From Sulfurimonas sp. (GTDB lineage: Bacteria; Campylobacterota; Campylobacteria; Campylobacterales; Sulfurimonadaceae), in the NCBI RefSeq assembly GCF_019429335.1, contig NZ_JAHYJB010000011.1:1-53007 (forward strand): a stretch of 53,007 nucleotides of DNA, read 5' to 3'. The notes beneath the pieces are model-generated. The model searched no databases. It was given only the letters and a program-made list of their open reading frames with translations, and was not told the DNA's origin. Numbering within the stretch: the stretch's first letter is position 1; each line of letters opens with the position of its first letter. This document shows, piece after piece, positions 7,034 to 52,820 of the stretch. The position numbers and the translations under genes are program-made.

Positions 7034-7447
7034 TTAAGAAATTTCTCTCTCAGAGAAAAAGAATGCAATTTCTACAGCTGCATTCTCGGCAGAGTCACTT
7101 CCGTGAACTGCATTAGCATCTATGTTTTCGGCAAAATCTGCACGAATTGTTCCTGCCTCAGCCTCTTTTGGATTAGTAGCACCCATAAGCTGGCGGTTTT
7201 TTATTAGCGCATTTTCACCCTCAAGTACAGAAACAACTACTGGACCGCTAATCATAAAATCAACTAAATCACCAAAGAAAGGTCTCTCAGAGTGAACTGC
7301 GTAAAAAGCTTCTGCATCTGCGCGAGAAAGTTGCATCTTTCTTGTTGCTGCTATTTTTAGACCATTACTCTCAAAACGATCTAAAATTTTACCGATAACA
7401 CCTTTTGCAACGGCATCTGGTTTTATTATTGATAGTGTGCGTTCCAT
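7034..7447 (-). CDS. ndk: Nucleoside diphosphate kinase
   Basis: A 137-residue enzyme that transfers the gamma phosphate from ATP to nucleoside diphosphates. It begins [13 protein letters not shown] and contains the active-site histidine in NAVHGSDS near residue 116, with the conserved [11 protein letters not shown] and GATNPKEA segments. I start it at the ATG at 7447, five bases after AGGAG; a TTG one codon earlier is too close to the ribosome site. It appears to be the first gene of the ndk-yceD-rpmF-plsX-fabH series. Confidence 0.97.
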
Positions 7448-20348: not shown

Positions 20349-21375
20349 ATGAAATCTCGCAGCCGTTAAAGAGAAAGTCCAACTCGCTTGATGGCTCTTT
20401 GTAAAGCAAAGGGCTGTCCAAATCGACATACTTCACAACATCACGATAGGCAAACGCCAGATACAAGGCAATGTTTATGGAGTAAGGTCCCTCAAGCATA
20501 GAGCCGAGCATACATGCAATGTTTTTCTCTCTTGCATACTCCAAAATCTCCACGGCTTTTGTAACCCCGCCGCACTTCATAAGCTTTATATTTATCATGT
20601 CGGCACTCTTTGACTCCATGACCTTTTTGACATCTTCAAGAGTGAAAACCGCTTCATCTGCCAAGATGGGAATGTGTGAGAGCTCTGTTATTTTTTTTAG
20701 ACTCTCCAAGTCAGAAGCGACAACGGGCTGCTCTATAAGTTCTATTTTTGCATCAAACATATTGCTTATAAAAAAGTGCGAATCCTCAAAACTCCATGCC
20801 TGATTTGCATCGACTAAAACCTCAGCTTGCGGCAGAAAGTTTGCGATTTTTCTTATAACATCCACCGCATGTAAAATATCGCTGCCGACTTTTACTTTGA
20901 GTATTGATATGTCAGCGTCATACGCCTTTTTCGCGTCCTCTAGCATAACATCCGCAGAGTTGAGGCTGATAGTCACATCCGTTTTTATAGGCGTAAAATC
21001 CTCTATGCAAAAATGCTCCGCCAGAGCGCGGTTTTTTTGTTTGACATGTAGAGATATAAATGCCATATCAAGTGCCGCTTTGGCACTTGAGCCGATGCTA
21101 CATGTTGAGTGCAAAATCTCTAAAGCCTCTTTACATGTAAGGTGCAAAAACTGCTCTCTTACGCTCTCAACGGAGTTTAAAATTATCTCTATATCTTCAC
21201 CCGTAATAGCCTTTGTAGCGGGCGCTTCACCGATGCCTACGTGTCCGTTTTCATCTTCTACATGTACTCTTATAAGCTCTACCTCCGAAGTCTCCCGCAA
21301 GGCAGTTTTGAATGGAGTTTTTAGTTCTATCTGTTTTACTTGGGTTGTGATTTTTAATACTTTCAAATCTTGCAT
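20338..21375 (-). CDS. Dipeptide epimerase (enolase superfamily)
   Basis: A 345-residue enzyme of the muconate-lactonising subgroup. The acid-base lysine pair is in ILKVKVG, followed by metal ligands in LVDANQAW, IEQPV and LADEAVF, and the second lysine in NIKLMKCGG. This set fits L-Ala-D/L-Glu epimerases, which recycle murein peptides; substrate specificity cannot be fixed from the sequence. The ATG follows AGAGGT. Upstream lie only gene remnants. Confidence 0.85.
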   Translation of the reverse strand: MQDLKVLKITTQVKQIELKTPFKTALRETSEVELIRVHVEDENGHVGIGEAPATKAITGEDIEIILNSVESVREQFLHLTCKEALEILHSTCSIGSSAKAALDMAFISLHVKQKNRALAEHFCIEDFTPIKTDVTISLNSADVMLEDAKKAYDADISILKVKVGSDILHAVDVIRKIANFLPQAEVLVDANQAWSFEDSHFFISNMFDAKIELIEQPVVASDLESLKKITELSHIPILADEAVFTLEDVKKVMESKSADMINIKLMKCGGVTKAVEILEYAREKNIACMLGSMLEGPYSINIALYLAFAYRDVVKYVDLDSPLLYKEPSSELDFLFNGCEISFKK

Positions 21376-21395
21376 TTTTTACCTCTTTAAAATAA

Positions 21396-21572
21396 TCACT
21401 CTCCATATCCATACCAAAAAAACACCCTTACAACTATAAGATTTGTTTTGATAAAGCTTTTGTCATTTTGCATAGTTTTTTCCCAGACTACTTTTACTTC
21501 CCTTTTGCTAAAGAGTTCCAAACAAAGCTTTATGTCATCAAAATCTGCATATTTAAGAGCGTATTCTATCAC
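21396..21572 (-). pseudogene. Remnant of a small gene
   Basis: A GTG-started frame after AAGGAG encodes 58 residues (IEYALKYADFDDIKLCLELF...). Near its end, at a run of seven T on the minus strand, the frame appears to shift: the neighbouring frame continues as GMDMESDYFKEVKNARFE and runs into the start of the epimerase gene. Just upstream (about 21585-21658) another frame encodes the end of a second small protein (ELDEHELNNIEKLYNAKAK). The pair looks like a decayed two-gene module, perhaps of toxin-antitoxin size. I do not recognise the families. Confidence 0.5.
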
Positions 21573-21659
21573 TAAACTACTCCTTACTTAATCATATGTA
21601 ATCTCTTTGCTTTTGCATTGTAGAGTTTCTCTATGTTGTTTAACTCATGTTCGTCTAGC

Positions 21660-21977
21660 TCACATACCAAGACTTAAATCTTCCCTGCAAAGAGGACCGA
21701 CTCGTTTGTATTTACGGTTAAAATACATGCCATATCGTGAGTTGATTTTTTGTAATGAGAGTGAAAGATTTTGATTGGCGATTTTCATCAGCAAATGATA
21801 ATGGTTGTTCATAAGAGGTAAATGAAAATATCTCAAATCCATACTCTTCACTTACCTCTTGTACGATTTCAGGAAATTTTTTAAAGTCATCATCTTCATA
21901 AAAAACAGTGTACTTAGCAATACCACGATTAACAATATGGTAAAAACCGTTTGCTCTATTCTTTGGGGTCTTGGCAT
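21660..21977 (-). pseudogene. Decayed RAYT-type (IS200-like) transposase
   Basis: A plausible ATG at 21977 starts MPRPQRIE. After a frameshift the next frame reads GFYHIVNRGIAKYTVFYEDD. After another it reads LMNNHYHLLMKIANQNLSLS and RYGMYFNRKYKRVGPL. These are consecutive parts of the REP-associated tyrosine transposase family (Y1 type): the HVNRG-like start, the HYHLL histidine pair and the FNRKYKRVG block. At least two frameshifts are present and the C-terminal third is missing, so it is inactive. It is bordered by an element-end repeat at 21991-22051. Confidence 0.85.
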
Positions 21978-21990
21978 GATTTAACTTACT

Positions 21991-22051
21991 TACTTTTTAC
22001 CCGATTGCAGCGTAACATAGTTTTAGTAAAAAGTAAAACTCTGACCCGCTT
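21991..22051 (+). repeat. Element end: hairpin plus conserved motif, copy A
   Basis: TACTTTTTAC (21991-22000) is the inverted repeat of GTAAAAAGTA (22026-22035). This runs into a 22-base motif ending CTCTGACCCGCTT (22030-22051) that recurs inverted at 23154-23175 and, with one change, at 52696-52717. It lies just upstream of the dead RAYT gene, the place expected for a structured recognition end of a Y1-type element. Confidence 0.7.
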
Positions 22052-22063
22052 TGTAAGGCAATA

Positions 22064-22546
22064 TTAAAAATAGTTACCTCGTTGAAAGGTTGTTATACAA
22101 CCACCGTTTAGTGGCTTCAACAACATTATAACCCCACCTTTGTTTTGCGTCCAAACATAATCAGCTGTCTCTGCTACAAATTCAAAAGCCTTCATCTCAC
22201 TAGCATACGCAGTACATGATTTAGTAGATGTAATGACTGACGTTTTAGTCATAAAACACTTGCCAGCATGTGTTCTAAGTTCTACTTCTAGAAAAACAGA
22301 ATCACCCTTACTTCCATAAGTTGCGGTAAGCTTTAGAGAATCATTCTTGGTATCATCAAACAATTGAGTATTGACACGTATATCATCACCACCAGCATTT
22401 TCAAAAGCTGACGTGATTGCTGCATCACATCCCATAAATCCCCTATCGTGCGCCTGCTTTAATGCAAACTGAATAAACTTTGAATCACCAGCATTACATG
22501 TCATTGCTGCTATCAATAAGGAAATTCCAAGTACAATTTTTTTCAT
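22064..22546 (-). CDS. Hypothetical exported protein
   Basis: A 160-residue protein with a signal peptide (residues 1-19, ending CNA-GD). The mature part has five cysteines, so disulfides in the periplasm are likely. I do not recognise a family. The ATG at 22546 has AAGGA upstream and precedes the hydrophobic core; a longer frame upstream would bury the signal peptide and is rejected. It lies 46 bp after the BamE-like lipoprotein gene in the same direction, and both genes together are bracketed by inverted copies of the element-end motif. Confidence 0.7.
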   Translation of the reverse strand: MKKIVLGISLLIAAMTCNAGDSKFIQFALKQAHDRGFMGCDAAITSAFENAGGDDIRVNTQLFDDTKNDSLKLTATYGSKGDSVFLEVELRTHAGKCFMTKTSVITSTKSCTAYASEMKAFEFVAETADYVWTQNKGGVIMLLKPLNGGCITTFQRGNYF

Positions 22547-22592
22547 ATTTTTTCCTTTTTTATATAACCCGATTTGTATCGAGCATATATAT

Positions 22593-22991
22593 TTACTGGA
22601 ATAATCCACCTTTAGTTTCACCTTTTGCGTCAGATGTGATAAAGTTTTTTACAACACCATTTTCTTCAAAAACTATAACTAATGATTTGGTAGTATCATT
22701 TGTGCCTGCAACAAACCAATTTGCAACTGGAACATAACTTACAAGTTTCAAGTCTTTTCTAGTGTGAGCATATGTCCATTTTTCTAAAGAATTATTGTCG
22801 AAATCCGTTCTGTCTGGATCACCTAAAAGTGCTTTTATGTCTTGTTTTGTAGATTTGCCTTTTACAATTTTTGTATCAAGCTCACTCTTTTCCATTGTGC
22901 CTAAGTTCTCATTGCCTGTCTTTACAGCACATCCACTACTTAAAACTAAAGTTGCAACTAGCATCGATGATGCAGTTATTTTTTTTAGCAT
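22593..22991 (-). CDS. BamE/SmpA-like lipoprotein
   Basis: A 132-residue protein with a lipoprotein signal (LVLSSGC, cysteine near residue 21). The mature part (KIVKGKSTKQDIKALLGDPD followed by a strand rich in W and Y) is the pattern of the BamE/SmpA/OmlA fold. True BamE helps outer-membrane protein assembly; several unrelated lipoproteins share the fold, and the accessory location here argues against this being the core BamE. It is probably co-transcribed with the exported protein downstream. Confidence 0.7.
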   Translation of the reverse strand: MLKKITASSMLVATLVLSSGCAVKTGNENLGTMEKSELDTKIVKGKSTKQDIKALLGDPDRTDFDNNSLEKWTYAHTRKDLKLVSYVPVANWFVAGTNDTTKSLVIVFEENGVVKNFITSDAKGETKGGLFQ

Positions 22992-23119
22992 TTTATTACT
23001 CCAATTTGAATTTAATTCATAAAAAATATGAATTAAATATTATACAAAAAAATACTATAATGGCCTGAAAAATCAAGACAATTTTTTAGCCTAATTAATT
23101 TCCACCTCTGCTTGTTACT

Positions 23120-23242
23120 TTACCCTACATTTTTAATAAATTCTAGATAATTCAAGCGGGTCAGAGTTTTACTTTCAAAATCCAAAGAAACACTTTTATC
23201 TTCCGTAATAACTCTGCACTTCAAATCACTCAAATCAACCAC
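23120..23242 (-). CDS. Short frame after RhuM, possibly truncated gene
   Basis: A GTG directly after the RhuM stop (TGAGTG) opens a 40-codon frame (VVDLSDLKCRVITEDKSVSLD...) that reads through element-end copy B and stops soon after. The part before copy B looks protein-like, while the part after it is arbitrary. It is best read as a third operon gene cut short when the element end joined here. Function unknown. Confidence 0.35.
   Translation of the reverse strand: MVDLSDLKCRVITEDKSVSLDFESKTLTRLNYLEFIKNVG
23154..23175 (-). repeat. Element-end motif, copy B (inverted)
   Basis: Identical over 22 bases to copy A (22030-22051) but on the opposite strand. Copies A and B thus bracket about 1.1 kb that encodes the exported protein and the BamE-like lipoprotein. 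Confidence 0.7.
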
Positions 23243-24259
23243 TCATTTGAGCCTCTTTATATCATCTTCAAGCTCTTTGAGGCTCTCTGACTTTTGATTT
23301 CCTTTTTTGGCTATTTTATATTTTTCATATTCTTGATTTGATTTTTTAAGAGCAATTTGATGGCTGATTTTCCCTGCATGAGTAAGTAGTTCTCTACCAT
23401 TTAGCGAGATGATAACATCAAGTCGTTCACACCACTCTTTCATAGTCATCGGCTTTTGTTGCATTGCCATCGTTTCGGCAAATGCCAAATATTGTTCTAC
23501 TAAAAGCCCAAGGAGTTTTATCTCCTCTTCTTTTAAATAATTTTTAGCAATGCTGACATCTTTTTTTGTGATGCTTTTGCCTTCTTTATCAAACGACTGC
23601 ATTCCAAGAAGCGGTAAACTCATATCAATTCTATTGTGTACAAGTTCTGCTGCTGTTTGCTCGGATACTGCCCAAAGAAGTTTGTTTTGGATGATTTTAA
23701 AAAACTCTATCGTTTTTTCATCTTTTGGATTGTAGTCTATGCTTGTCATATAAATATCTTTGATTTTTTGATAAAAAAACCTCTCAGATAATCGTATTTC
23801 TCTTAGTCGTTTTTGGAGTTCATCAAAATAGTTCATATTTGAACCGCTTTTAAACCTCTCATCATTAAGCACAAAACCTTTTGTGATGTACTCATTTAAC
23901 TTCCCAGTTGCCCAAATCCTAAACTTTGTACCTTGAGCAGATTTAACACGAAACCCAACAGCGATAATCATATCAAGATTGTAGTATTCAACATCTCTTG
24001 AAACTTCTCTATTTCCTTCAATTTGAACTCTTCGGAAATTCCGAACAGTTGAACTTGGAGCTAGTTCTTCTTCATCGAAAATATTTTTTATATGTTCACT
24101 TATAGTTGATTTTACTTTACCAAAAAGTTCACAAATTTGAGCTTGAGATAACCAAATAGAGTTATCTTCAAACCGCACATCTACTTTTATATCACCGTTT
24201 TCATTTTGATAAATAAGCATTTGGCTCATTTTATGACTCTCTACCGCTACTAGCATCAT
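23243..24259 (-). CDS. RhuM family protein 1
   Basis: A 338-residue protein of the RhuM family, named after a gene of Salmonella pathogenicity island 3. The N-terminal winged-helix-like region (SIWLSQAQICELFGKVKSTISEHI, about 34-57) is followed by the hallmark DMIIAVGFRVKSAQGTKFR and ATGKLNEYITKGF. The C-terminal half is helical and charged. The biochemical function of RhuM is not established; it recurs on mobile islands and near defence genes. The start overlaps the toxin gene stop (ATGA), placing it in the antitoxin-toxin operon. A start at the second methionine is equally possible. Confidence 0.88.
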   Translation of the reverse strand: MMLVAVESHKMSQMLIYQNENGDIKVDVRFEDNSIWLSQAQICELFGKVKSTISEHIKNIFDEEELAPSSTVRNFRRVQIEGNREVSRDVEYYNLDMIIAVGFRVKSAQGTKFRIWATGKLNEYITKGFVLNDERFKSGSNMNYFDELQKRLREIRLSERFFYQKIKDIYMTSIDYNPKDEKTIEFFKIIQNKLLWAVSEQTAAELVHNRIDMSLPLLGMQSFDKEGKSITKKDVSIAKNYLKEEEIKLLGLLVEQYLAFAETMAMQQKPMTMKEWCERLDVIISLNGRELLTHAGKISHQIALKKSNQEYEKYKIAKKGNQKSESLKELEDDIKRLK

Positions 24260-24600
24260 ACCATCCCCAACACAATTTTCATTTGCTTATCGACTTGCTC
24301 CATCTCATCATCACTTAATACGGTAAGTTTTTCGTTTATGATTCTTTGATTGTCTATCGTTCTTATTTGGTCGCAGAGTATTTCGTTAGAAGAGTCAAGT
24401 TTGTCTCTTTTTGTTACTCTAAATCTTAGAGGGTAGCTCTCATCTATGAGGTGTGTAGATAGAGGTAAAACAGTAGTTGTAGGATGTGCTATCTCGTTTA
24501 ACATATCTGTTTGGTAGATAAGAATCGGGCGGAGTTTACCGACTTCATTGCCTTTTTTGGGGTTGAGATTCGCTAAGTAGATTTCGCCTTTTTTAAACAT
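24256..24600 (-). CDS. MazF/PemK-type toxin
   Basis: A 114-residue PemK/MazF-fold endoribonuclease. It begins MFKKGEIYLANLNPKKGNE and has the family segments KLRPILIYQTD (arginine-proline), a TTTVLPLS strand and the C-terminal CDQIRTIDNQRI, where the arginine after the DQI motif is typical of the active site. Such toxins cut mRNA when the antitoxin is degraded. I start at 24600, inside the antitoxin stop codon region (8-base overlap); the earlier in-frame codons belong to the antitoxin gene. Confidence 0.88.
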   Translation of the reverse strand: MFKKGEIYLANLNPKKGNEVGKLRPILIYQTDMLNEIAHPTTTVLPLSTHLIDESYPLRFRVTKRDKLDSSNEILCDQIRTIDNQRIINEKLTVLSDDEMEQVDKQMKIVLGMV

Positions 24601-24835
24601 TGCCAAGCCCGTCACTCAATGTACCTTCAAACTCATTTGCTGCTTTTTTGGACTCTTTTCTCACCTTTAAAGATGCCTTTTTTATCTGTTGTTTTAGCTT
24701 CTCTTTTTCTAAAGTTTCTTTGTAGTTTATAACTGCGTTTCTGATAAGCTCACTTCTTGAAGTGCCGAATGTCGTTGCCATTTCATTTAGCATCGTAAAA
24801 AAATTATCATCTGCTTTAAGTGTTATCGTATGCAT
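24593..24835 (-). CDS. Ribbon-helix-helix antitoxin
   Basis: An 80-residue protein. The first 50 residues (HTITLKADDNFFTMLNEMA..FGTSRSELIRNAV) fit a CopG/ribbon-helix-helix DNA-binding domain; the lysine-rich tail would wrap around and neutralise the toxin. It is the first gene of the operon with the MazF-type toxin and RhuM and probably represses its own promoter in the 55-bp gap before 24890. Confidence 0.82.
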   Translation of the reverse strand: MHTITLKADDNFFTMLNEMATTFGTSRSELIRNAVINYKETLEKEKLKQQIKKASLKVRKESKKAANEFEGTLSDGLGNV

Positions 24836-24889
24836 AAATACTCCTTTTAAGTATTATATAAATATTACTCTTTGTATTACCTTTAAGCC

Positions 24890-46915: not shown

Positions 46916-48147
46916 TAAAGAGAGTAAAAAAATATACAACCACAAACAGTTTGGTTCTTCTTGCCATTCTCTCTGGCGCGCTTTTTGGAGTTTTCTTCCC
47001 AGAGCTGGCTTTGGAGCAAAAAATCATAGGTTCTATATTTATTTCGTTTTTAAAAATGCTGGTTGTTCCGCTCGTTTTTGCAAGCATTTTTACGGCCATT
47101 ATAGGGCTTGGCTCTCTGGAGCATCTCAAAAAAATCGCTCTTAAAACACTTCTGCTCTACATCTTTACAACATCTCTGGCAGTTTTGGCGGCTATTGTTG
47201 CTATGAATATTTTTTCAGTGGGAGAAAGTGTAGAGAGTGCAGGACTTAGCTATGAAAAAGCAGCCGCGATAGAGCCTTTTTCTCTCTCGGCTATGGTGCT
47301 TAGTTTTATCCCGACAAATATTTTTTCAGCTCTGAGCGAGGGCTCTATGATGCAAATCATAGTGTTTGCAATACTGCTTGGAGTTGCTTCGCTTTACCTA
47401 AAACCAAGTGAGCAAAAATCTATGTTTGATTTTTTCTCAGCACTAAATGGCGCCATGTTGAAAATAGCAGGGTGGATTATTCTTCTGACACCCATCGGCG
47501 TTTTTAGTCTAATCTCTTACGTCATAGCCCAGCAGGGAATAGATGTTGTTTTGGGCTTGTGGAAATACATGCTGGTAGTTGTTGGTGTCATCGTTTTTCA
47601 CGCGCTCATTACTCTTCCCGCACTCTTGGCATACTTGGCGAAAGTCAATCCTTACCGCTATCTCTCAGACGTACGAGAAGCTTCCATTATGGCATTTTCA
47701 ACCGCTTCTTCAGCGGCTACACTTCCCGTGTCTATGAAAGTAGTTAAAGAGATGGGTGGAGTAGATGGAAAAACTGCCTCTTTTGTTCTGCCTTTGGGTG
47801 CTACAGTTTCTATGGACGGAACGGCTGCATATCTCTGTGTTGCAGTACTATACATCGCAAATCTTGCAGGTGTGGAGCTTGCTTTTGGCGAGCAGGTTTT
47901 GCTTGGAGTTACCGTTGTAGCTTTGAGTATAGGTGTTGCAGCACTGCCTAGTGCCTCTTTGGTTATGCTGGTTGTTATTTTAAATCAAGTTGGTTTGCCT
48001 GTTGAGTATATCGCCCTGATTGTCGCGGTGGATAGAATTTTAGATATGTGCAGAACTTCGCTAAATGTCACTTCTGATTTGGTTGTGACAAAGATTGTCG
48101 ATGAGTATGAAAAAAGAGGCCGCACGCTCTCAAGCACCGCCTCTTAA
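46912..48147 (+). CDS. DAACS family dicarboxylate/amino acid symporter
   Basis: A 411-residue membrane protein of the dicarboxylate/amino acid:cation symporter family (GltP/DctA type). Typical parts are FISFLKMLVVPLVFASIFTAI, the serine-rich AFSTASSAATLPVS hairpin, the SMDGTAAY motif and the final DRILDMCRTSLNVTSD. The exact substrate (glutamate, aspartate or C4-dicarboxylate) cannot be given. It starts with TTG overlapping the miaA TGA, a coupled start. Its 3' end overlaps the convergent sirtuin fragment by four bases. Confidence 0.93.
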   Translation: MIKRVKKYTTTNSLVLLAILSGALFGVFFPELALEQKIIGSIFISFLKMLVVPLVFASIFTAIIGLGSLEHLKKIALKTLLLYIFTTSLAVLAAIVAMNIFSVGESVESAGLSYEKAAAIEPFSLSAMVLSFIPTNIFSALSEGSMMQIIVFAILLGVASLYLKPSEQKSMFDFFSALNGAMLKIAGWIILLTPIGVFSLISYVIAQQGIDVVLGLWKYMLVVVGVIVFHALITLPALLAYLAKVNPYRYLSDVREASIMAFSTASSAATLPVSMKVVKEMGGVDGKTASFVLPLGATVSMDGTAAYLCVAVLYIANLAGVELAFGEQVLLGVTVVALSIGVAALPSASLVMLVVILNQVGLPVEYIALIVAVDRILDMCRTSLNVTSDLVVTKIVDEYEKRGRTLSSTAS

Positions 48148-48380
48148 TTTAAAAAAACTTTTATCTCCTTCGCTATCTCATCAACGGCTTCGATCGCTTT
48201 TTTGTAAAGCACTTTTGAGAAGTAGGCGTCGTTTATGGCAACGCTTGGCTCATAGTTGTTTAAAATCGACCTTGTAGCAAACTGCGCCATTGTGTTTACG
48301 CCTATGACATTGCCACTTGTGCCGATAACGACAAAGAGTTCGCAATCCTGAATATGTCTGTTTAGCTCCTCGTACATGGA
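48144..48380 (-). pseudogene. C-terminal fragment of a sirtuin gene (cobB, copy A)
   Basis: The frame encodes the last ~78 residues of a SIR2-type deacetylase (MYEELNRHIQDCELFVV...) and is closely related to the complete copy at 49914-50624. Eight amino acids differ, all in the last 35, and there are several silent changes. At 48380 the similarity ends in a short stretch shared with miaA, and the antisense of the miaA repeat follows. The NAD-binding start is absent, so it cannot be functional. Confidence 0.92.
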
Positions 48381-48496
48381 CGCAGCTTGCAAAGAGACAG
48401 CAGACGTTCAACCGCACTCAGTTTGAAAATATCATCAGCGCGCCGCTTGAGGATTTGGAAGAACTTATACTATCTTCTATACATTCTCAAAAGTAA
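48381..48496 (+). pseudogene. Duplicate 3' end of miaA with alternative tail
   Basis: The first 70 bases repeat miaA 46809-46878 exactly. The frame then continues as DLEELILSSIHSQK to a stop at 48494-48496, a tail that looks like an ordinary MiaA C-terminus. No start or upstream part of miaA is present. The tail overlaps the end of the convergent PAS-GGDEF gene by about 20 bases, as expected if that gene originally lay after this version of miaA. Confidence 0.88.
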
Positions 48497-49641: not shown

Positions 49642-49917
49642 ATGAAAAAACTTTCCATAACCGATGAAGAAGAACTAAGAGATTTCTATAAAACAGTCTC
49701 TGAAAATGTCAGAGCAATAAGAAAACAGAGAAATAAGCCTCAGCTTGATTTGGTCTTAGAGATGGGTCTTAGATCAATATCATTTTACAGTAAATGCGAA
49801 AATCTAAAAGATAATCACCATTTTAACCTAGAGCATATATATAAAATAGCGGTCGCACTCAATGTTGATATTTTAGAGTTTTTTAACGGTATCAGTACTA
49901 TAAAAGAAGATCCCTAA
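49642..49917 (+). CDS. XRE-like helix-turn-helix regulator
   Basis: A 91-residue protein with a Cro/C1-type five-helix pattern (VSENVRAIRKQRNKPQLDLVLEMG, then SISFYSKCE and the last helices KIAVALNVDILEFF). It probably binds DNA and may act on its own divergent promoter region. The stop overlaps the end of the convergent sirtuin gene by four bases. It resembles short XRE regulators found across this phylum. Confidence 0.78.
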   Translation: MKKLSITDEEELRDFYKTVSENVRAIRKQRNKPQLDLVLEMGLRSISFYSKCENLKDNHHFNLEHIYKIAVALNVDILEFFNGISTIKEDP

Positions 49918-50624
49918 CTTAAAAAACTCTCTATCTCCTGCAATATCTCATCAACGGCTTCGGTCGCTTTTTTGTAGAGCACTTTTGAGAAGTAGGCATC
50001 ATCTATGGCACTGCTAGGCTCATAGTTGTTTAAAATCGACCTTGTAGCAAACTGCGCCATTGTATTTACCCCAATGACATTGCCGCTTGTGCCGATGACG
50101 ACGAAAAGCTCACAATCCTGAATATGTCTGTTTAGCTCCTCATACATGGGCGCTGCTTCGCCGAAAAAGACGATGTTTGGTCTAAGTTTTGAGTTACATG
50201 TAAGACATCTTCCGCCGTTAAACTCATTTTGATTTTTATAACCTATGTCAAAAACTTTTCCGCAGTTTGAGTTTTGACATCTAAGCTGTGTCAAAAAACC
50301 GTGCAGATGAATAACATCCTCGGATTTAAGCCCTGCTTTTTCAAAAAGATTGTCCACGTTTTGAGTAATAACCGCTATCTCTTTTTTGTACATGTTCTTT
50401 AGCTCGGCTACTCTTTTGTGTGCGTAGTTTGGCTCTTTGCTCTCTAGCTCCGCTCTTCTTTTGTCGTAAAACTCTATGGTTGCATCTTCGTGCTTTTGCA
50501 TGCTGTCGTAGTTGCAAACAACGCTGACATCGTACTCATCCCAAAGCCCGCCGCTGTCCCTAAATGTACTTATGCCCGACTCAGCACTTATCCCCGCACC
50601 GCTTAAAATCAAAACTTTTGCCAT
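49914..50624 (-). CDS. cobB: SIR2-family NAD-dependent deacylase
   Basis: A 236-residue sirtuin that removes acyl groups from lysines using NAD. It has the NAD-binding start LILSGAGISAESGISTFRD, the catalytic ITQNVDNLFEKAG..VIHLHGF histidine, two zinc-binding cysteine pairs (CQNSNCGK and CLTCNS) and FGEAAP. Residues Y and R of the class III (desuccinylase) type are seen in FYDKRRAELE. All catalytic parts are intact. Fragments of a second, diverged copy lie on both sides (48144-48380 and 52724-52775). It follows the RhuM gene by 13 bases in the same direction. Confidence 0.93.
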   Translation of the reverse strand: MAKVLILSGAGISAESGISTFRDSGGLWDEYDVSVVCNYDSMQKHEDATIEFYDKRRAELESKEPNYAHKRVAELKNMYKKEIAVITQNVDNLFEKAGLKSEDVIHLHGFLTQLRCQNSNCGKVFDIGYKNQNEFNGGRCLTCNSKLRPNIVFFGEAAPMYEELNRHIQDCELFVVIGTSGNVIGVNTMAQFATRSILNNYEPSSAIDDAYFSKVLYKKATEAVDEILQEIESFLS

Positions 50625-50637
50625 CTGTTTTTCTCCG

Positions 50638-51642
50638 TCAGACCTTAATTTTTAACATCTTCGCCGTAGCCTCTAAATGCTCTATAAAATCTTCTTCTAC
50701 TTTTGAGAGTTCATTTTTTGTTTTTTCTTTGTATGACATGTACTCTTTATTTACCTTTTCTATAGCTTTTTCATGGCTGATTGTGCCAGCGTGAGAGAGT
50801 ATATCTTTACCCGTCATTTTCAAAAAATCATCCAATCTTGCTATCCAGTCTTTCATGTACATCGGGGTTTTACTCATCGCTTGAATCTCTGCCATCTCTA
50901 TATATGCCGTTACCATACGATTTAAAAGAGTTAGTTCATCAACATTCAGATAGTTTTTGGCTATCTCTGCTTCTTGTTTTGTTGGTTTGCTGCCTTTAAA
51001 GTTGGTAAGCCCAATATTTGGCTTTGTGCTGTCTGCTCTTTGATAAACTATCTCCGCTGCCGTGTTGCCATGAACTGCCCAGTGCATTTTGTTCTGCACC
51101 GTTTGAAAAAAGAGCATAGAACTCTCCGCTTTTGGGTCGTAGTCTATACTTGTGGCATAGATGTCTAGTACCTTTCTCCAAAATACTTTCTCACTGCTTC
51201 GTATATCTCGGATGCGTTCTAAAAGTTCTTCAAAATAGTTTCCGCCACCTGCTTGTTTCAAGAGTTCATCATTCATAGTAAAACCTTTGATGATGTACTC
51301 TTTGAGCCGTGCTGTTGCCCATTGACGGAACTTCGTACCTTGAAGCGATTTTACTCTGTAGCCTATGGAGATGATGACATCTAGGTTGTAGAAGTTAGTA
51401 GGTTTTGTAGAAAAATCGGAATTTCCGATTTTTCTCATGCTCTCATCTTTTTCAAGCTCAGCTTCTTTATAAATATTTAAAATATGTTCATTAATTGTTG
51501 AGCGGCTTTTTTGAAAAAGTTCTGCCATTTGGTCTATATTTATCCAAACAGTTTCATCTTCAAGTCGTGTTTGGATTTTGGTCTGCCCGTCTTCGGTTTG
51601 GTAGATGAGGATGTTTGATTGTGAGTTCATTTTATTTTTCAT
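50638..51642 (-). CDS. RhuM family protein 2
   Basis: A 334-residue RhuM protein with an N-terminal winged-helix-like region (TVWINIDQMAELFQKSRSTINEHI), the core DVIISIGYRVKSLQGTKFRQWA and a helical C-terminal half. It is colinear with the RhuM at 23243-24259 over its whole length. It starts inside the end of the RhuM-PLD gene (11-base overlap) and is followed by cobB after 13 bases, so the three are probably one transcript. Its biochemical role is unknown. Confidence 0.88.
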   Translation of the reverse strand: MKNKMNSQSNILIYQTEDGQTKIQTRLEDETVWINIDQMAELFQKSRSTINEHILNIYKEAELEKDESMRKIGNSDFSTKPTNFYNLDVIISIGYRVKSLQGTKFRQWATARLKEYIIKGFTMNDELLKQAGGGNYFEELLERIRDIRSSEKVFWRKVLDIYATSIDYDPKAESSMLFFQTVQNKMHWAVHGNTAAEIVYQRADSTKPNIGLTNFKGSKPTKQEAEIAKNYLNVDELTLLNRMVTAYIEMAEIQAMSKTPMYMKDWIARLDDFLKMTGKDILSHAGTISHEKAIEKVNKEYMSYKEKTKNELSKVEEDFIEHLEATAKMLKIKV

Positions 51643-52504
51643 GCTTCAACCTCTGTAAAATCTCCAAAGCTTCCATCTCAAACTTAGAAAATGCAAACCA
51701 CTTTTTGCCGAGGTCTTTGAGACTTGTTCCTATGTGGTAAATCTCTTTTTCATCAAGTATCAAAAATCTGTCGTGAGCTTTTTTGAACTCATATAGTTCT
51801 ATATTTTGATACTGGGAATTGTATTTTTGAAAATCCAAACGCAGCTGTTTTGAAATGCTCTGAGTGTAGATTTTTATCTTTAAATTTTGGTATTTACTAA
51901 AGAGTGTAAAAACCGTATCGTCTATGTAGTTATCTATAATAACCACTTCATCTTTTGCACTTTTTAACAAATCGTTCACAAAAATATAGGCATCATACAT
52001 CTGCCCGTCAAAAAGTATTCCTTGTTTTTGTTTTAGCGTTGTGCTTTCAAGTGAATTTGAGATATTTTCTACTTTTGACTTTAAAAGCACCACCTCATTT
52101 TCAAGCTCTTTAAATCTTTGGTTTGTTATTTTTTCGGAGTTTATTACATATCCGTCGGTAATGTAATTTTTGAGTACTTTTGTTGCCCATTGTCTGAACT
52201 GTACCCCTTTTTGCGATTTTACCCGATAGCCCACTGAAATAATGACATCCAAACTATAGTATTCAACATTGTATGTTTTGCCATCATGAGCAGTTGTCGC
52301 AAAATTTGCGACAACTGAAAACTTTTCAAGTTCCCCATCACTAAATACATTGCCGATATGCTTCCCTATGGTTTTTACATCTCTACCGAATAGCTCTGAA
52401 ATTTGATGTCTATTGAGCCATACCGTATCATTTTTAACAGACACATCAAGCTCAAGCTCACCGTCATTATAAATAATCAAATCTGATTTATTTAGTTTAT
52501 CCAT
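51632..52504 (-). CDS. RhuM-like protein with phospholipase-D-like C-terminus
   Basis: A 290-residue protein. Residues 1-130 are a RhuM-type N-terminus (TVWLNRHQISELFGRDVKTI, then VIISVGYRVKSQKGVQFRQWA). A coiled linker (about 125-155) leads to a domain (about 165-285) whose DEVVIIDNYIDDTVF and AHDRFLILDEKEIYHIGTS resemble one half of a phospholipase D-type fold, with HxR in place of the usual HxK. Such domains in defence or mobile proteins can be nucleases. A fusion of this kind with RhuM is unusual. Confidence 0.8.
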   Translation of the reverse strand: MDKLNKSDLIIYNDGELELDVSVKNDTVWLNRHQISELFGRDVKTIGKHIGNVFSDGELEKFSVVANFATTAHDGKTYNVEYYSLDVIISVGYRVKSQKGVQFRQWATKVLKNYITDGYVINSEKITNQRFKELENEVVLLKSKVENISNSLESTTLKQKQGILFDGQMYDAYIFVNDLLKSAKDEVVIIDNYIDDTVFTLFSKYQNLKIKIYTQSISKQLRLDFQKYNSQYQNIELYEFKKAHDRFLILDEKEIYHIGTSLKDLGKKWFAFSKFEMEALEILQRLKHEK

Positions 52505-52601: not shown

Positions 52602-52695
52602 AACCAATCCTAGATACTTTTATTTATCATGGCGTAAAAATAAAAATTCATTTAAAAATATGACATTTTGCAATGATTTTTTCTATATGTAGTAA

Positions 52696-52717
52696 AAAGT
52701 GAAACTCTGACCCGCTT
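52696..52717 (+). repeat. Element-end motif, copy C
   Basis: Matches copies A (22030-22051) and B (23154-23175) at 21 of 22 bases. The similarity to copy A extends to the left for a few more bases (AGTAAAAAGT). It directly joins the truncated cobB start at about 52722. Confidence 0.75.
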
Positions 52718-52723
52718 TATCCA

Positions 52724-52775
52724 TTCCCGACTCAGCGCTTATTCCCGCACCGCTTAAAATCAAAACTTTTGCCAT
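52724..52775 (-). pseudogene. N-terminal fragment of a sirtuin gene (cobB, copy A)
   Basis: The frame encodes MAKVLILSGAGISAES plus one or two residues and then runs into the element-end motif and stops. This and its upstream flank (to 52806) match 50572-50655 at about 80 of 84 positions, including the end of an upstream RhuM-like gene (KIKV then stop). It is the missing front of the sirtuin gene whose tail is at 48144-48380; the middle ~140 codons are gone. Confidence 0.9.
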
Positions 52776-52786
52776 CTGTTTTTCTC

Positions 52787-52820
52787 CATCAGACCTTAAT
52801 TTTTAATGCCTTTATATCTT
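52787..52820 (-). pseudogene. End fragment of a RhuM-like gene
   Basis: A short frame reading DIKALKIKV then stop sits just upstream of the cobB fragment, at the same place as the end of RhuM (MLKIKV then stop) upstream of the complete cobB. It suggests that copy A of cobB also followed a RhuM-like gene. Confidence 0.4.

Follow-up and report, generated by a model that had tools for sequence, protein, structure and literature searches.

The stretch of Sulfurimonas DNA analysed here (53,007 nt; the window) carries a short motif in two accessory regions (Table 1). A 22-base motif had been predicted at 22030–22051 (− strand), 23154–23175 (+) and 52696–52717 (−), and was found at all three places, designated copies A, B and C; A and B have the same 22 nt and C is one base off. 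The sequence CTCTGACCCGCTT occurs exactly three times in the 2.06-Mb genome, always inside the window, and the reversed-pattern control gave no match, while a 28-mer common to A and C, with one base free to vary, was found twice where shuffles expect 0.00. The core of the motif is GGGTCAGAG-N-TTTACTTTT.

Table 1 Features of the window associated with the motif (LE, left end, see text). Positions refer to the 53,007-nt stretch.
Feature	Position	Strand
Broken RAYT (Y1_Tnp) gene of the long, C-terminally extended clade; 3' part enters the epimerase gene start	21361–21977	−
Accessory insert of 3.5 kb with A and B, between the DUF819 and epimerase genes	21376–24889	
Copy A, very probable LE motif of the dead RAYT	22025–22051	−
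Copy B, very probable LE motif, ACTTT side facing the RhuM 3' end	23154–23175	+
RhuM (23243–24259), PemK toxin (24256–24615) and RHH antitoxin (24593–24835) genes, on the ACTTT side of B	23243–24835	−
Second cobB, C-terminal fragment	48144–48392	−
Intact cobB (SIR2-type), inside the block	49914–50624	−
RhuM1 gene; RhuM1–cobB adjacency also in G032 (L034)	50638–51642	−
RhuM2 gene, on the ACTTT side of C; unit of motif, upstream region and RhuM2 also in G066	51632–52504	−
Copy C, very probable LE motif ATAAAGCGGGTCAGAGTTTCACTTTTTACT, left part common to G066	52691–52720	−
Second RhuM1-end/cobB-start copy, fragment cut by C	52721–52801	−

Copies A and B lie in an insert between a DUF819 gene and an epimerase gene. 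At least ten relatives lack the insert, their two genes overlapping (ATGA) or touching; empty-site junctions were shown in 10 of 30 DUF819 loci, these 30 being drawn from 105 matching genomes. A broken Y1_Tnp (RAYT) gene lies about 50 nt downstream of A, in line with the original prediction, which placed A next to a dead RAYT. Copy B is inverted relative to A and is a shorter form of the motif, without TTACT. It had been said to cut off a frame after RhuM, and indeed an open frame (VVDLSDLKCRVITEDKSVSLDFES...) enters the motif and runs through it, which bears the claim out at the level of the frame, the identity of the gene aside. No RNA family was matched in an Rfam search of the window, and a hairpin end around A was ruled out, since its fold (z-score −0.11) was no better than those of shuffles. 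The segment between A and B (22064–22991) contains two small exported-protein genes, one of them BamE-like. At 21361–21375 the epimerase start (MQDLKVLK...) appears to borrow 3' bases of the broken RAYT gene; relatives begin MKIAK.... Genome G104 (L173) has the window's RHH-PemK pair at its DUF819 site, and next comes a methylase-like gene where the window has RhuM.

Copy C had been interpreted as the right border of a block that split cobB. C does abut a gene break, but an intact cobB lies within the block, so the split gene is a second copy, which lacks about 400 bp. C adjoins the N-terminal fragment of this second copy, about 19 codons long and following the final codons of RhuM1. Thus, the C locus cannot be explained simply by a single insertion that split a single cobB. 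The unit formed by ATAAAGC, the motif and the region upstream of RhuM2 is common to the window and G066 (about 82% over 1.3 kb), and its left neighbour is the cobB start in the window and the RhuM1 end in G066. The left flanks at window position 52713 and at 9018 of L027 (G113) are alike (GG.ATGG.TAAAGC), maybe by chance.

The motif was found a few tens of bases 5' of an intact Y1_Tnp (RAYT) gene, and on its coding strand, in four genomes (G031, G443, G239 and G255), and in a tree of 33 RAYT proteins these four form one clade with support of 100/99. The middle fragment of the window RAYT is 65–73% identical to the four clade proteins, and its C-terminal remnant had matches at E ≤ 1 only to them. 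Pfam Y1_Tnp was above the cut-off in L086, L090 and L093 and below it for the broken window copy, and the RAYT signatures (NHYH, Y..NP) are readable in the clade proteins as NNHYH and YIEFNP. In a test for the C-terminal helix-turn-helix of subclass 2.1, HTH_23/HTH_28 was detected in the G255 protein and none in L090 and L093 at E ≤ 0.001. Elsewhere in the phylum, the counterpart of the motif at RAYT genes (GGGGTCAGGGCTAAACTTTT and similar) recurs inverted at the stop codon. Inverted repeats of this kind accompany 17 of the 33 tree RAYTs by our own reading of the repeat scores, one weak case (L103) included, which amounts to 17/29 outside the window's clade and 0/4 within it; a right end was also searched for across the clade loci and not found. 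The sister RAYT L107, which has GGGTCAGAGCTTTACTTT and an inverted near copy downstream, joins the motif to the RAYTs with terminal inverted repeats. An exact variant can be common to RAYT and cargo in one genome, as is GAGCTTTACTTTTAACTAAAA in G443. For five genomes that carry the motif (G471, G262, G235, G066 and G113) no clade RAYT was found in the search of 298 genomes, which perhaps did not include all five.

On these sequence comparisons, the motif is very probably the left end (LE) of a TIRYT-type clade of RAYT/TnpA-Y1 (HUH) elements. Copy A is by all appearances the LE of the window's dead RAYT, and B and C are apparent LE copies bordering RhuM-bearing accessory DNA. TIRtrons or TIRYTs are described in PMC3733652 as RAYT elements with terminal inverted repeats and GGGGWSAS ends, and PMC6006769 places this arrangement mostly in TnpA-Y1 subclass 2.1. 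The present clade resembles this group (subclass 2.1, RAYT group 1) in its RAYT-type Y1_Tnp protein and in having phylum relatives with both inverted ends; its 5' GGGTCAG (after G, C or A) fits or nearly fits the published GGGGWSAS, the Sulfurimonas form CGGGTCAG being one base off. It differs in the C-terminal extension, in having no inverted right end (4/4 intact RAYTs) and in LEs that flank accessory genes in direct orientation. IS200/IS605 elements differ in their subterminal hairpins at both ends; here the fold around A is no better than those of shuffles and no right end was found. The array RAYT of G443 has its own, differing 5' end GGGGTCAGGTACTTTTACT (L092, about 7100–7180), so that two end types occur in one array. 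In G031 (L093, 8640–10281) the C-terminal end of the RAYT and the beginning of an AbiEii-like toxin gene overlap, a pair of which remnants were seen in G443 and G239.

Among 135 genomes of the genus, seven carry nine copies of the motif with at most 2 mismatches (control, 0), and six of these nine lie at one hotspot flanked by epimerase-like and DUF819 genes (G000, G022, G032, G124, G130). In the phylum sample the 24-nt form (at most 3 mismatches) was found at 23 places in 9 of 397 genomes, with 2 in the control. Within the G255 family (18 genomes, pattern search) G255 has 14 copies, G325 has 2 and the remaining 16 genomes have none. The right-hand neighbours of 44 copies from 13 genomes were RAYT (9), toxin, TA, HEPN-NTase, RhuM or Fic type (18), AAA, PD-(D/E)XK or Uma2 (7) and other genes (10), these classes being assigned by hand and not set against the background frequency of such genes in islands. 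The count covers 25 loci, 24 of them with a copy; L027 and L086:10310 were scored by the next real gene past a small or doubtful ORF, and G130, with 3 mismatches in its copy, was omitted. The hotspot copies and the accessory right-hand neighbours support the view that the motif marks breakpoints of accessory DNA, and no copy was seen within intact conserved chromosomal genes of these genomes. The 18-mer also has exact matches in Acidobacteria, Desulfuromusa, Lentisphaerota and Limnohabitans (L004–L006, L008), which lack the ACTTT extension and were excluded as members, their number being, by our own estimate, about what chance gives in a collection of this size. Carriage by phages was rejected, as the 19-nt core was present in a single viral contig, there within a terminase-like gene, and reads as chance, and a query with a clade RAYT retrieved six plasmid records, all below 60% identity and none matching over 80% of the RAYT length.

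Outside the window, all 25 copies in the seven multi-copy loci have one orientation per locus, a pattern to which A and B are the exception. Three of these loci, with 7, 4 and 4 copies (at most 2 mismatches, or the one-base-shorter form) and each in one orientation, are in G255; the others are L092 and L216 (3 copies each) and L091 and L093 (2 each). Between the copies lie genes for DUF1703 AAA-ATPase/PD-(D/E)XK, ATPase_2, AAA_14, Uma2, ORF6N and GNAT proteins, pairs of nucleotidyltransferase and HEPN-like genes, YafQ-Phd and RAYT itself, and single copies elsewhere adjoin HepT, HicA, Fic and RhuM; some of these identities, between copies and at their borders, were assigned by eye. The edges of the units are sharp on the left and ragged on the right. 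In L092 of G443 three Phd-YafQ units each start with the motif, the first two ending at different points in phd and the third being complete, and the RAYT between them is truncated by the third motif. In G255, homology of the DUF1703 gene ends after residue 324 and that of the RAYT after residue 299, with a motif at each break. L216 of G239 is a ladder of two stubs, an LE with about 37 bp, an LE with RAYT to about codon 73 and an LE with full RAYT, all with an identical left end, and L217 and L215 have one such stub apiece.

Single-orientation arrays with sharp left and ragged right edges led us to infer one-ended stacking. In the proposed mechanism the inverted right end would be gone in the clade and the LE would act alone. 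The transposase would nick the left border of the LE, and single-stranded DNA would run from it a variable distance rightward, through RAYT or whichever gene adjoins, to be joined to an A-rich target or to the left border of another LE. Repeated rounds would stack LE-gene units in one orientation, with genes truncated at ragged right ends, and accessory genes, mostly toxin-antitoxin-like, would be turned into cassettes. Taken whole, an LE of a RAYT clade that has lost its right end and alone stacks adjacent genes as cassettes is the probable explanation. For the step of one-ended, HUH-driven stacking in the clade the chances appear nearly even, with a slight lean against; the MITE-like copy and the ladder microhomology described below, the irregular form of B and the inversion of A and B speak against it. 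Neither a transposition event nor a strain pair differing by exactly one cassette was found among the genomes compared.

The copies might instead be bare TIR relics or MITE-like mini-elements, which landed without cargo in islands rich in toxin-antitoxin genes. A copy between cysC and cysQ in G255 has an inverted partial partner and, at about 165 bp, resembles a MITE; Di Nocera et al. (PMC3733652) report dispersed TIRs in families of modest size; and the DUF819-epimerase hotspot holds other accessory genes too. This account is possible and still unlikely given the uniform orientation of the 25 copies, the right-truncated genes fused to the next motif, and the occurrence of the motif-RhuM2 unit with two different left flanks. 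The arrays and ladders might also have arisen without transposase action, through slippage of replication at an A-rich site or tandem duplication mediated by microhomology there. The junctions of the G239 ladder have short A-rich microhomology, with a few A/T bases in common with the left flank, so template switching with no transposase is conceivable; it is a doubtful explanation overall, because the identical left edge is met in several genera, at loci unrelated to one another and carrying equally unrelated cargo, and the G255 units are for the most part not mutual duplicates. A promoter or other regulatory element for accessory genes would suit the position 5' of the gene in forward units, but at YafQ of G443, HepT of G124 and RhuM of the window (B) the motif lies beyond the 3' end of the gene and on the opposite strand, which makes such a function very improbable. 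A site-specific recombination site of the Xer dif or integron attC type, suggested by cassettes between short repeated sites, several with TA genes, as in pdif modules and integrons, is hardly credible with a core that is not palindromic, no strong fold around A, ragged right ends and a co-travelling enzyme that is an HUH transposase and not a tyrosine recombinase.

The proposed one-ended stacking by the RAYT clade has counterparts among known systems. In IS91/ISCR elements and Helitrons one end is fixed, the other is variable and adjacent genes are picked up. The same three features are proposed for the clade; unlike them, its motif-adjacent protein is a Y1_Tnp RAYT and not an IS91-type (Y2) or RepHel protein, and no known terminator sequence was recognised. 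Integron cassettes and pdif modules are arrays of small genes, often toxin-antitoxin, with a short repeated site between genes. The clade arrays are built alike and differ in their ragged right ends and HUH enzyme; no attC fold was seen, and no integrase was noticed beside the arrays read. As a tentative extension, an HUH (Y1) clade might run an integron-like cassette system, in which one asymmetric end of about 26 nt, with no right end, would by one-ended transfer of single strands build directional arrays out of toxin-antitoxin, HEPN-NTase, RhuM and DUF1703 genes. REP/REPIN sequences are RAYT-linked short repeats dispersed in a genome, with genome-specific variants. The LE shares the RAYT link and the genome-specific variants that PMC6006769 describes for such dispersed repeats, and differs in being non-palindromic, in having few copies and in bordering genes instead of filling intergenic gaps.

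Neither the end type nor the transposase family is new. For right-end loss, directional cassette arrays and toxin-rich cargo, no description was found in the literature searched, which did not extend to preprints and most subscription journals. A defined DNA end is here tied to one RAYT clade and comes with cargo. If the cassette system exists as proposed, RAYT group 1, whose mobility has so far lacked formal evidence, would gain a substrate and a function. Action of the transposase on the LE, if it takes place, would account for the amassing of toxin-antitoxin and other selfish-looking genes in directional arrays of Campylobacterota. As judged from sequence, the data suggest that a poorly understood transposase family may move or stack toxin-antitoxin and other accessory genes.

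As for the places where the copies lie, a same-strand stop codon was found 0–6 nt (in fact 2–3 nt) before GGG in 8 of 44 copies, compared with 90 of 10,000 random places, for which the window searched was wider. These stops, first read as target choice, may just be supplied at the junction, since TAA often belongs to the A-rich left flank. In G262 (L096, 5483–8435) an LE copy is located about 115 bp outside a CRISPR array of at least 44 repeats, as counted from its last exact repeat.
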